Shown here: piece after piece, positions 30,826 through 39,719 of the stretch
Layout: each line of letters begins with the position of its first letter
Numbering within the stretch: the stretch's first letter is position 1
Source of the DNA: Arcobacter roscoffensis
GTDB taxonomy: Bacteria > Campylobacterota > Campylobacteria > Campylobacterales > Arcobacteraceae
NCBI RefSeq assembly: GCF_024267655.1
Contig: NZ_CP100595.1
Span: 186,001-250,000 of the forward strand
Direction: 5' to 3'
Length of the DNA stretch: 64,000 bases
Made by a program: the position numbers and the translations under genes
Notes under the pieces: model-generated
Seen by the model: only the letters and a program-made list of their open reading frames with translations
The model's database searches: none
What the model was told of the DNA's origin: nothing

Positions 30826-30852
30826 GTGTAAGATTTTACTTACACTTTTTTT
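30824..30852. terminator. bidirectional terminator
   Basis: The stem AAGTGTAAG (30824-30832) pairs with CTTACACTT (30839-30847), loop ATTTTA, then a T run. It overlaps the stop codons of both convergent genes. Confidence 0.75.
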
Positions 30853-31078
30853 CACATTCATTTAAAGATTCAAAAGGAATATTTCCTCCACATCCTCCCC
30901 AAATAAACTGCTTACATTTTTTTTCATTTTGGTCAAAATAATATTTTGAGAACATTGCTTTACACATTCCAGTTTTTGGAAGTTCATAGCATTTACTATC
31001 AAGTTTTACCTCTTTTGTGGAACTACAAGCACTAAAACCTAAAACTATTAAGATAGAAAATATGATATTTTTGTACAT
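30836..31078 (-). CDS. lipoprotein with a Kunitz/BPTI-type inhibitor domain
   Basis: An 80-residue protein with a hydrophobic signal and lipobox-like FSAC (Cys18). The mature part has six Cys (30, 39, 55, 63, 75, 79) with spacings 8-15-7-11-3. This matches the Kunitz/BPTI pattern of 8-15-7-12-3 closely, along with the hallmark region C-x-QFIWGGCGGN (aromatic, Gly-Gly-Cys-Gly, Asn). The residue after the second Cys is Lys40 (GMCKAM), the same P1 position and residue as in BPTI, implying inhibition of trypsin-like proteases. Kunitz domains are chiefly eukaryotic. The lipid anchor would place it in the cell envelope. Inhibitory activity is inferred, not shown. Confidence 0.85.
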   Translation of the reverse strand: MYKNIIFSILIVLGFSACSSTKEVKLDSKCYELPKTGMCKAMFSKYYFDQNEKKCKQFIWGGCGGNIPFESLNECEKKCK

Positions 31079-35540: not shown

Positions 35541-35939
35541 CTAATTTGATTTTTTTATAGTTTCATACTTATCTAAAATCTCATTTATAAACTTAGTGGC
35601 TTTTTTCTTTTGTAAATATGTGTAAAGTATCACTAATACTACACCTATTCCATAAGTAAGTAAAATAGCTAAGATAATCAAAATAGTAAGTACCAAAGTA
35701 TCATGTAACTGTCCTTCAAGATGAAATGAAGTTGCTTTTTTTTGTTTGTCTAAAGTGATTTTACAGTTGTACTTCAAGAGTGTATCAAGATGAAGTTTTT
35801 CTATTTCAAGTGAGCTTTTATCTAGTTTTGTTTCGTACTCTTTGTCTTGAATAAGTGAAGTCTTTAACTCTTCTAAAAACTCTTGCTTTGAAAGTGTAGA
35901 GGGTAACTCTTTTTTTATACTTATATCAAATAGTCCCAT
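35541..35939 (-). CDS. conserved membrane protein, unknown
   Basis: A 132-residue protein. I chose the ATG at 35939 (MGLFDISIKK) because AAGG lies upstream at proper distance; the frame continues 12 more codons without support. The N-terminal half is charged and soluble, followed by one long or two close hydrophobic helices (about 80-110, LVLTILIILAILLTYGIGVVLVILYTYL) and a basic tail. Function unknown. It sits between luxS and the defence-like pair. Confidence 0.6.
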   Translation of the reverse strand: MGLFDISIKKELPSTLSKQEFLEELKTSLIQDKEYETKLDKSSLEIEKLHLDTLLKYNCKITLDKQKKATSFHLEGQLHDTLVLTILIILAILLTYGIGVVLVILYTYLQKKKATKFINEILDKYETIKKSN

Positions 35940-36008
35940 AAATAGCCTTGTTTTATTTTTAGTATAGCAAAACAAGATAGTAAGAGTTCAAAAAAACTGA
36001 ACATAAAA

Positions 36009-36022
36009 TATACAGCTGTATA
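36009..36022. promoter_or_regulatory. 14-bp perfect palindrome
   Basis: TATACAGCTGTATA lies in the gap between the small membrane protein gene and the HNH gene. It could be an operator for the former. The assignment rests on symmetry alone. Confidence 0.3.
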
Positions 36023-36131
36023 AAATATGAAAGTGTAAAATTAAAGCAAAACTAAATAACATTTTTACTACCATATAAATAATATAAAATAATGAAAGTA
36101 AAATATAAGAACTTAATCTATAATAATTAAT

Positions 36132-36833
36132 TTAAGATTTAGTTCTAACTCTTGAGTTTTTAGCTCTTCTCATGAGTGTATTAACTCTATCTTCATATTT
36201 ATTCGATAAACTTGTTGAAAGCTTACTTTGATATTTAACATTTTGAATATTAGAATTATGTGACAATTCAAGATCCTCTAACAAAAAATATTTATATGTA
36301 AAATAACCTTTTTTTGTTTTTTTAGAATAATGGATTACTTTTTTCTTATTTTTTATAGAAACATAATAATCAATATGTTTATAATAGTCATCCAAATTGG
36401 GATGTATAAATTTATAAAAGTTTCTATTCTTATAGTTTAGTGATATTTTTTTTAAATTTATTTTTTTTAAAAAACTAATATCAGTTTTTTTAATTCCGGC
36501 ATTACATCTTCTGCATGAAATAGAAAGGTTGTTATTAACATCAAACATAAATTCTTTAAATATAGATTTAGGGAGAATATGTTCAATATCAATTACCATA
36601 TATGTTTCTCCATGTAAGTTTTTTCTACAATAAGAACATTCATAATTCTCTTTTTCTAATAAAAAGTCTTTTATTCTTCTTTTAAACTTTTCTAGTTTAA
36701 TTTTTGTTAACTTTGAATGCTTTTTCGTATGACTCCAGGCGTCTGTATAATGAAATTTTTTTAAACTATTAATAAGTCTTACATCATCTTTTGTGTATAT
36801 AAACTTATTCTTATTTTTTTGAATCAATTTCAC
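36132..36833 (-). CDS. HNH endonuclease, partner of the adjacent ATPase
   Basis: A 233-residue basic protein with a central HNH domain: C66-x2-C69 (YECSYCRK), the DIEHILPKS metal-finger motif (D82, H85), Asn101/102 (NNL) and C107-x2-C110-N (SCRRCNAG). This layout fits HNH nucleases found next to PtuA-like ATPases in Septu-type and retron-associated defence modules. The flanks are Lys-rich and likely bind DNA. Its start overlaps the ATPase stop by 23 bases, so the two are one transcript. Confidence 0.82.
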   Translation of the reverse strand: MKLIQKNKNKFIYTKDDVRLINSLKKFHYTDAWSHTKKHSKLTKIKLEKFKRRIKDFLLEKENYECSYCRKNLHGETYMVIDIEHILPKSIFKEFMFDVNNNLSISCRRCNAGIKKTDISFLKKINLKKISLNYKNRNFYKFIHPNLDDYYKHIDYYVSIKNKKKVIHYSKKTKKGYFTYKYFLLEDLELSHNSNIQNVKYQSKLSTSLSNKYEDRVNTLMRRAKNSRVRTKS

Positions 36834-38400
36834 AACCTATCTCATAAATACCATCTAATAATTCAATTTGTCTAACATCATAAACAAAATTTTTGTAGTT
36901 TGAAATTTTTGAATTAAAATCTTCAAATATCAGTGTTCCTTCATCTAACTCATTTAATAAATCAACTAGCTCATTTGACAACGACCTATTTTCAGGAGTA
37001 ATAATATTAAATACTTCTCTAAGTAGTGTTTCATGGTTTAATGAATTATTAAGTAGCTTTTTATACGATTTTTTTTCTGAAACAAATATATTAATTTGGT
37101 TATCTAAAAATTCAGATACAGATATAAGAATAGGAGAGTGAGTCGCAATTATTATTTTAGAATTATATTCAGAAAAGAAATTTATTAATGTTTTAATAAA
37201 ATCTTTTTGCCATTGTGGATGTAAACTATTTTCTGGTTCATCTATTAAAATCACACTTCCATAACTACTTATATGGTTTAAAATATATGTAAATATACTT
37301 ATTAGTGTTAATTCTCCTGAACTCGCATGAGAAAGTGGAATATCAAGATTATTTCTTGATAGAAAAAAGTCAAAAGATATATTTAATTTCTCTGCGGTAA
37401 GTTTATTTACTGAATTAATAAAATTTTCAGCCTCTGTAATATTGTTTGAATGTCTGATCCATAATATCTCATCATTATTTTGTAAAAATTTATATTCATT
37501 TATAAAAATATTGTTTTTTTCATTAATATTACTTCGATCTTTTTTTGTTAAATTGTTAATATTTAATTTTAATCCAATTTTATCCTGATAGTCAATTAGT
37601 TTTAAAAATTCTAAAAATTTATTAAAATTCTTTTTCTCATAAATACATTTTTCTATTGTCTTTGAGATGGTTTTAGGCCCAGTTTTTGCACCTAAAAAAT
37701 GATACTTGTCTTCATCAAATTCTTTCAAGTCTTTTTTAGAGATGTCTGAAAACTTGTCATATATTGAACTCGATATTGCTATTACATGTTTATTTTTTCT
37801 TAAATATTCAAATACTAAATTTCTTAAAAGTTGGCTCTTCCCTGTACCATTCTTACCAATAATAATAGAAATATCATTATTAGTATTTAATAATTCAATA
37901 GGTACTTCTCTTACTGTCTGAGTTTCCATATTTTTTGATCTTTTGATATACTTTTTTAATAAATCCATTAAAGGAGGAATAGCTTCTGTTAAATATGCTC
38001 CTTGTCGTAAAGAAATTATATCTCTATTTATATATTTTATATAAAAAAGTTTATTATAATCTCTTTTAATTTCTTGAAGTACTTCATTATTATTGATAAA
38101 AAACTCTCTAATATTTATATCTGGAATATAAGGAGTGAATTTTTCTAATTTGATTCTGTAATAATCTCTATCTTCAATAGTTATTTCTTCTAGTTTAGAT
38201 ATAACTATTGATTGACCAATAAATGCATCTTTTGATTGATCTAAGTGTATGATAATGTCTCCTATTTCAATATCTCTCATACTTTTATAAATATCAGCAT
38301 TATTTTTACTCCTAGCAGGAGAAAGTAATACTTTTTTAAATTGACCCTCTTTATTTAATATTCTTTTATGCGAATATGTTTTCTCTATCCAAAATTTCAT
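36811..38400 (-). CDS. EVE/PUA-like domain fused to an OLD/PtuA-like AAA (ABC-type) ATPase
   Basis: I chose the ATG at 38400 (MKFWIEKTYS), giving 529 residues; the frame stays open 25 codons further with low-complexity sequence. Residues about 1-90 (KFWIEKTYSHKR, LLSPARSKNNADIYKSMRDIEIGDIIIHL, FIGQSIVISK) match the EVE/PUA-like module seen in modification-dependent restriction proteins. The ATPase part has Walker A GKNGTGKS (182-189), an ABC-like signature SHASSGE (about 357-363), Walker B VILIDEPE (383-390) and the His-loop IATHSP (H421). A long insertion (about 215-340) separates the lobes, as in OLD/PtuA proteins. It pairs with an HNH nuclease. Base reading of modified DNA is inferred from the EVE resemblance. 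Confidence 0.78.
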   Translation of the reverse strand: MKFWIEKTYSHKRILNKEGQFKKVLLSPARSKNNADIYKSMRDIEIGDIIIHLDQSKDAFIGQSIVISKLEEITIEDRDYYRIKLEKFTPYIPDINIREFFINNNEVLQEIKRDYNKLFYIKYINRDIISLRQGAYLTEAIPPLMDLLKKYIKRSKNMETQTVREVPIELLNTNNDISIIIGKNGTGKSQLLRNLVFEYLRKNKHVIAISSSIYDKFSDISKKDLKEFDEDKYHFLGAKTGPKTISKTIEKCIYEKKNFNKFLEFLKLIDYQDKIGLKLNINNLTKKDRSNINEKNNIFINEYKFLQNNDEILWIRHSNNITEAENFINSVNKLTAEKLNISFDFFLSRNNLDIPLSHASSGELTLISIFTYILNHISSYGSVILIDEPENSLHPQWQKDFIKTLINFFSEYNSKIIIATHSPILISVSEFLDNQINIFVSEKKSYKKLLNNSLNHETLLREVFNIITPENRSLSNELVDLLNELDEGTLIFEDFNSKISNYKNFVYDVRQIELLDGIYEIGCEIDSKK

Positions 38401-38675
38401 TTTTAGCCTATTATAAATTTCATTTGTATATATTATTAAATTACTACTTAATAAAATATTATTACTAAAAAACAATATAAGTAACTTATCTTTTTTTATT
38501 ATTTCAATTTTATATTATTCATAAAAGTACATAGTTAGAATTTGTATTTATAATTATTAATGTTGAGTAGATTATTCTAAATATGGTGTACTATCTATTA
38601 ATCACTAGAAAGATAATATTCCTAAATTAAAAAGTAAGTTTATAGATATTTTAGATGAGCTAAATAAATAATAGT

Positions 38676-39719
38676 CTAATCCTTCAATCTCTTAGCAAAA
38701 ATAGGAGCTATATTCATCACTATAAAAAGTCTTACTATATGGTGTAGGGTTATATATGGCACATTTGCACCTACTAGTATTGCTATTAGGTTTAGTTCGG
38801 CTTGTCCACCTGGACTAAAAGCTAGGATTGTAGAGATGATAGGGAAACCAAAACTAAAGTAAGCGATACTTATAAAGATACTTGATATTAAAGCTAGTAT
38901 GATAAAGTGCCCAAATGTTCCTATCAAAGTTGAGATGATTGTTTTCATCTTCACACCTCTAAAAGTAAAACCTATGATTGTACCAAATACCACTTGTACA
39001 AACTTCAAAAACTCATCAGGTACGGTTGTTGTGATAACTCCTGTAGAGTGAACAGCTATACTTGCTATCATAGGACCTATTAGATAGGCAGCTGATAGTT
39101 TTATTTTTTTTGCTATTACTCCACCTGCTACACCTATAAAAACTAAAGCTAAAAATTCAGGTATATTTATAGTAGTTATTGGTTGTGTGATTAGTTTGTT
39201 TCCACTTATGTCTACTTTGAAGATATACTGTATTACAAAAGGTAGAGTAACTACTATAAAGAAAAGTCTTGAAGATTGAACCAAAGTGATTTTTGAGATA
39301 TTTGCTTTTATCTCTTCACCTATGATTACCATCTCTATTACACCACCTGGCATGGAGCTTAGGTAAGCAGTCTTTTTATCAAAACCTTGAAATCTATAAT
39401 AGTAATACATCCCACAAAGAATAGTCAAAATAGTAAAAGGTATCACAAGAAGTAAACTATAAAAATATACATCAATATACTGCAATATCTCAGGAGTAAA
39501 AGCACTTCCAATAGTAAGACCTATAAGTATTCTAGCAGGAGTTGAGAAAGGCTTAGGGCTTAATATAGGAAGCTTTTCAAACCTCATAGCAATAGAAGAA
39601 GCAAAGATAGCTCCTAAAAGCCAAGGCAAAGGTAAACCTAAAAAAATAAATACAATAGAACCACAAACACCAATTCCTAAAGCTAATAACATTTGGTATA
39701 GAGTATGTAAGTTAATCAT
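38676..39719 (-). CDS. AbrB-family membrane permease (duplicated domain)
   Basis: A 347-residue polytopic protein with about ten hydrophobic helices in two homologous halves; each half contains a GLPLPWLLGA-like or AYLIGPMIAS motif typical of this AbrB-duplication family. Databases often label it a transcriptional regulator or ammonia monooxygenase, but it is a membrane protein, plausibly a transporter. It lies downstream of the two-component pair on the same strand, about 207 bases away, with hairpins between. The substrate is unknown; the Tct context suggests a carboxylate. Confidence 0.72.
   Translation of the reverse strand: MINLHTLYQMLLALGIGVCGSIVFIFLGLPLPWLLGAIFASSIAMRFEKLPILSPKPFSTPARILIGLTIGSAFTPEILQYIDVYFYSLLLVIPFTILTILCGMYYYYRFQGFDKKTAYLSSMPGGVIEMVIIGEEIKANISKITLVQSSRLFFIVVTLPFVIQYIFKVDISGNKLITQPITTINIPEFLALVFIGVAGGVIAKKIKLSAAYLIGPMIASIAVHSTGVITTTVPDEFLKFVQVVFGTIIGFTFRGVKMKTIISTLIGTFGHFIILALISSIFISIAYFSFGFPIISTILAFSPGGQAELNLIAILVGANVPYITLHHIVRLFIVMNIAPIFAKRLKD

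Follow-up and report, generated by a model that had tools for sequence, protein, structure and literature searches.

The locus consists of two minus-strand genes with overlapping ends in the window, the window being the whole 64-kb stretch of DNA analysed (64,000 nucleotides). They encode an ATPase with an additional N-terminal domain and an HNH endonuclease, and the pair is, by all sequence criteria available, a Septu system. It occupies an insertion between two conserved genes and has the following features:

35541-35975: small conserved gene, next to luxS, flanking the insertion
35976..38675, no strand: insertion holding just the pair (placed by tblastn of the flanks on relatives, by the junction sequences and by GC)
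36132..36833, minus strand: ptuB, HNH endonuclease, 233 aa, GTG start
36501..36638, minus strand: HNH core of PtuB, residues 66-111 (a weak Pfam HNH match over residues 66-112, 7e-4, under the curated cut-off)
36811..38400, minus strand: ptuA, EVE-like domain plus PtuA-type ABC/AAA_21 ATPase, 529 aa, ATG at 38400
37132..37146, minus strand: His-loop ATHSP, PtuA residues 419-423 (A419, H421 and P423 invariant)
37216..37248, minus strand: Walker B LIDEPENSLHP, PtuA residues 385-395 (invariant in the alignment)
37309..37323, minus strand: ABC-like signature SSGEL, PtuA residues 360-364 (invariant in the alignment)
37834..37857, minus strand: Walker A GKNGTGKS, PtuA residues 182-189 (from the alignment with three related PtuA)
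37885..37944, minus strand: linker from EVE-like domain to ATPase, PtuA residues 153-172 (lies after the domain match and before the PtuA match; related PtuA start about here)
37945..38400, minus strand: EVE/PUA-like domain, PtuA residues 1-152 (from profile, PDB match, AlphaFold model and fold search)
38317..38322, minus strand: S27-P28 motif, counterpart of the VcaM4I pocket residues S23-P24 (the same in all 10 domain sequences)
38676-39719: AbrB-family gene flanking the insertion

The two reading frames share exactly 23 bases (36811-36833), and the ATPase with Walker A, signature, Walker B and His-loop, overlapping an HNH gene, that the first-pass annotation had described was recovered with both frames and all motifs. 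Its assignment of the pair to the PtuA/PtuB plan of Septu is borne out by the PADLOC models: PtuA1 (PDLC00273) matches window PtuA at 6.3e-76, solely over residues 175-527, and PtuB1 (PDLC00352) matches window PtuB at 1.2e-53 over residues 10-223, a resemblance far beyond chance. Additionally, Pfam AAA_21 is found on residues 177-427 of PtuA (2.7e-19), and the key ATPase motif residues are unchanged when window PtuA is aligned with the PtuA of Vibrio coralliilyticus and with those from two other genomes. PtuB carries a zinc-knuckle HNH core of the form C66xxC69 ... H85 ... N102 ... C107xxC110. An alternative in-frame TTG start at 38475 would lengthen PtuA; the ATG at 38400 is supported because the MKxWIEKT position is where homologues start or where their alignment sets in.

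Septu type I as modelled in PADLOC (PDLC00273, PDLC00303, PDLC00352) has both of these genes in the same order, with the same ATPase and HNH motifs. Among the closest PtuA, that of the V. coralliilyticus plasmid pOCN014 (377 aa) is 36.5% identical over window residues 170-529, and those of the two other genomes have 390 and up to 402 aa; each of the three genes is followed by an HNH gene. Known type I PtuA proteins of this subfamily (377-402 aa) open directly with the ATPase, whereas window PtuA is longer by about 165 N-terminal residues.

The N-terminal domain of window PtuA is EVE/PUA-like, both in sequence comparison and in its predicted fold. A profile of nine homologues, from which the window protein was excluded, recovers window residues 2-150 at 3.2e-28 (an E-value computed for a notional 5,000 sequences), and a seven-sequence profile run against the sequences of all PDB chains has a single credible match, VcaM4I (6yex, 3.8e-5). 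The AlphaFold model of residues 1-152, built from five sequences, has a mean pLDDT of 79.5 and a pTM of 0.77. With this model, Foldseek ranks VcaM4I first (2.1e-7), and VIA-align aligns it over 133 residues with Z 14.2 and an rmsd of 2.4 A. In the VIA-align comparison VcaM4I is followed by the archaeal and bacterial EVE-like entries 2p5d, 2hd9 and 2eve (Z 10.4 to 11.9), and further matches include THYN1 with 5mC DNA, ASCH, YTH (Z 8 to 9.4) and the McrB N-terminal domain (6n0s). Chance resemblance is ruled out, as sequence homologues, PDB profile match and fold agree. The first-pass annotation had seen about 90 EVE/PUA-like residues here; the assignment stands on profile, fold and homology, but the length does not, the domain spanning about 152 residues. 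No Pfam EVE model matches it at E up to 1, yet the VcaM4I profile match was obtained, so the domain is a divergent EVE subfamily. Pfam, PADLOC, NCBIfam and PHROGs offer no convincing family for any member of the domain alignment.

Searches with the domain alone lead mainly to restriction proteins. On plasmids, tblastn found two McrB-type ATPases, namely an AAA ATPase of Natrarchaeobaculum (6e-9) and a protein of Agrobacterium fabrum (1e-7) encoded directly before an annotated mcrC, together with one weak, unannotated partial match and nothing else. Scanning genome contigs with a three-sequence alignment yielded McrB-like proteins in a Hyphomicrobiales genome and two haloarchaea, as well as one Bacteroidetes fragment. 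The phylum to which the Hyphomicrobiales genome belongs also gave weaker domain matches, to VcaM4I-like EVE-HNH enzymes. Furthermore, 395 genomes of the Bacteroidetes phylum contributed two more McrB-like hosts and one direct HNH fusion (L033). This last gene, on the minus strand at 1108-2025 of L033, encodes a 305-aa EVE-like plus HNH protein beside an integrase-like gene and is probably an uncharacterised EVE-HNH restriction enzyme. Viral contig scans returned no relative of the domain and none of whole PtuA, and the phage records contain no copy of the EVE-like domain. The domain shares homology with the specificity domains that McrB-like proteins and one HNH restriction enzyme carry.

McrB-like proteins accompanied by McrC thus carry the same domain subfamily ahead of an ATPase, and EVE-McrB is a common architecture according to the accessible part of PMC7641849. 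McrB is, however, an AAA+ GTPase with a PD-(D/E)xK partner, whereas window PtuA belongs to the ABC-type ATPases and is paired with an HNH protein. Membership of the window pair in McrBC was rejected, the ATPase being of the AAA_21/PtuA type and the partner an HNH protein.

The comparison with VcaM4I bears directly on the pocket of the domain. The EVE domain of VcaM4I flips 5mC and 5hmC out of DNA; its pocket consists mainly of P24, W82 and Y130, and the flipped base is sandwiched by the aromatic W82 (PMC7897488). The EVE-HNH type IV enzymes (6yex, 6yjb, 6ykf, 6ymg), with VcaM4I among them, are closest in fold to the window domain, share the SP motif and likewise use an HNH effector, but VcaM4I holds EVE and HNH in one chain and has no ATPase. 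S27-P28 of the window domain aligns with the SP motif that provides P24 in VcaM4I, both in the PDB search and with the nine-homologue profile. The window domain also retains the QGAY motif, the Tyr of which, placed by the motif alone, probably matches Y130. A counterpart of W82 is present in the nine homologues, whereas the window protein has none and its loop at this place is shorter; the specificity may therefore differ, or binding may be weaker or lost. The WIEKT, SP, GD and QGAY motifs, the reading frame and the domain length are all intact despite an identity to the homologues of about 30-40%, which suggests selection.

The fusion of this domain to PtuA was found once. Among 347 genomes of the host phylum, the window genome is the only match of the domain profile, and the same profile detected no EVE-Septu fusion in 398 genomes of a second phylum or 395 of a third; across some 1,140 genomes, plasmids or phages in all, no second fusion came to light. 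A PtuA profile run on 338 genomes of the second and third phyla gave four PtuA, none of which has an EVE-like domain. An initial scan of genome contigs with the whole protein returned zero matches, and in plasmids and phages no whole-protein match covers most of PtuA, the plasmid matches being confined to the domain or the ATPase part. A free-standing start of the same EVE-like domain lies on the plus strand at 4001-4435 of L022, followed by a broken frame. It was considered as a second EVE-Septu fusion and discarded: the start resembles the window protein, but the frame is broken and an ATPase was not recognised.

Among catalogued systems, the PADLOC candidate PDC-M01 likewise pairs an ATPase, in which about 185 residues precede Walker A, with PDC-M01B, and it gives weak matches to the window proteins. 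Because the window domain matches no PADLOC ATPase model, similarity to the N-terminal part of PDC-M01 is not detectable. In the literature searched, which mostly excluded subscription papers, no paper linked an EVE or PUA domain to Septu or PtuA, and a census of EVE fusions names no EVE-Septu class in its available portion. The earlier remark that no Septu form with this domain had been described is therefore consistent with the PADLOC families and the literature searched. The EVE-PtuA combination is a new variant within Septu, represented by a single instance.

Other N-terminal modules occur on PtuA in the host phylum. Two Septu pairs, both on the minus strand (573-2820 of L008 and 552-2598 of L009), have a PtuA with N-terminal TPR repeats, and PtuB adjoins the TPR-bearing PtuA. 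The N-terminal modules of PtuA look exchangeable between systems, since an EVE-like domain is found here, TPR repeats elsewhere in the host phylum and no module in the closest relatives.

The suggestion of the first-pass annotation that the pair, lying between ordinary genes, may be an insertion is upheld by the gene order in three relatives from the host's family, in which the flanks were located by tblastn. The AbrB-family gene and the small gene are 2.7 kb apart in the window. In relative L037 they are separated by about 93 bp, luxS follows and the pair is missing; the same distance is about 66 bp in L057, and in L043 the AbrB-family gene lies about 134 bp from luxS. Moreover, the GC content is 0.22-0.23 in the pair against 0.295 in the whole window. 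Terminal inverted repeats, a target duplication and terminators were looked for at the insertion ends without a convincing instance, neither repeats nor mobility genes accompany the insertion, and the 64-kb window contains no tRNA gene. Horizontal acquisition of the pair is favoured to a degree, a grading that it shares with the gain of the EVE-like domain and the base-gated control of PtuB, as parts of one reading. Between ptuA and the AbrB-family gene, a short remnant at window positions 38601-38675 reads PKLKSKFIDILDELNK and then a stop, and may be the tail of a gene since lost. Elsewhere in the window, the minus strand at 30836-31078 encodes an 80-aa lipoprotein-like ORF with a Kunitz/BPTI domain (Pfam PF00014, 5.9e-14), a protease-inhibitor domain best known in animals.

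The host genome, which is nearly complete, was surveyed for two DNA methyltransferase families, PF00145 (C5 methyltransferases) and PF01555. Neither family has a match, while PF00145 occurs in 10 of 14 control genomes and PF01555 in 11 of 14. Marks of these kinds would therefore be non-self to a reader in this host.

Computation established that the pair is Septu, that the extra domain has an EVE-like fold and that it is fused to PtuA, and the following mechanism is proposed for these features. A Septu pair would have been acquired horizontally, and its PtuA would have gained an EVE-like domain of the kind found in McrB and EVE-HNH type IV restriction. On invading nucleic acid the domain would bind a modified base, probably flipped into an aromatic pocket; base binding would be coupled to the ATPase state of PtuA, and the coupled ATPase would license the HNH nuclease PtuB to act on a putative target. 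Base reading and coupling are predicted because of the role that related domains have in McrB and EVE-HNH systems, as given in the available parts of PMC7641849 and PMC7897488. We regard this course of acquisition, base sensing and licensing of PtuB as rather probable. The first-pass annotation had likewise proposed that the pair detects modified (phage) DNA and cuts through HNH, a proposal that the missing W82 counterpart and the tRNA-Tyr or DNA targets published for other PtuAB make less straightforward. The chances that the pair is a modification-dependent Septu in the strict sense, with an EVE-type reader gating the HNH effector through an ABC ATPase and a modified base as its trigger, would be about even.

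Retron-Eco7 and Septu EcB88 use the same PtuA ATPase and PtuB HNH effector; as far as the accessible text of PMC11555353 and PMC13096335 goes, they differ in that an EVE domain is not mentioned, control lies with the retron or with some other trigger and the target is tRNA-Tyr, which Retron-Eco7 PtuAB depletes and for which EcB88 leads to variable-loop cleavage. According to the same portions, one Septu has been reported to act on phage DNA, and escape mutants of one Septu showed amplification of a tRNA gene and not a phage trigger (PMC13096335). The EVE-like domain might thus read modified RNA, for instance a tRNA nucleotide, and steer PtuAB to an RNA substrate instead of phage DNA, and the structural matches include YTH domains, which are m6A RNA binders. 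This reading is nevertheless considered unlikely: in sequence as well as in fold, the domain is closest to specificity domains from DNA restriction (McrB with McrC, EVE-HNH, VcaM4I), and PtuAB for which the available text reports no EVE domain already acts on tRNA.

Slightly less probable still is that the domain is vestigial or purely structural, its pocket binding no base and Septu being triggered otherwise. The pocket Trp is lost and the loop shortened in the window protein alone, and the fusion is known from a single instance; the conserved frame, length and motifs described above, which suggest selection, speak against decay. A role outside phage defence, either as a toxin-antitoxin-like unit or against incoming DNA such as plasmids, is given little credence. 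PtuAB expressed without the retron parts arrests growth in the case of retron-Eco7 (PMC11555353, in the part available), but the best profile relatives of both ptuA and ptuB are anti-phage Septu proteins.

Under the preferred reading, in which a modified base would be sensed by the EVE-like domain, the fusion of PtuA to relatives of known base readers supplies a concrete and testable candidate trigger for Septu. PtuA appears to tolerate exchangeable N-terminal modules, EVE-like here and TPR elsewhere in the phylum, and it joins McrB and HNH proteins among the hosts of one uncatalogued EVE-like subfamily. The locus is an instance in which type IV restriction and an ATPase-nuclease defence system have exchanged a module. 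If true, a modification-dependent Septu would represent a new mode of activation and an ATPase-coupled relative of EVE-HNH restriction.
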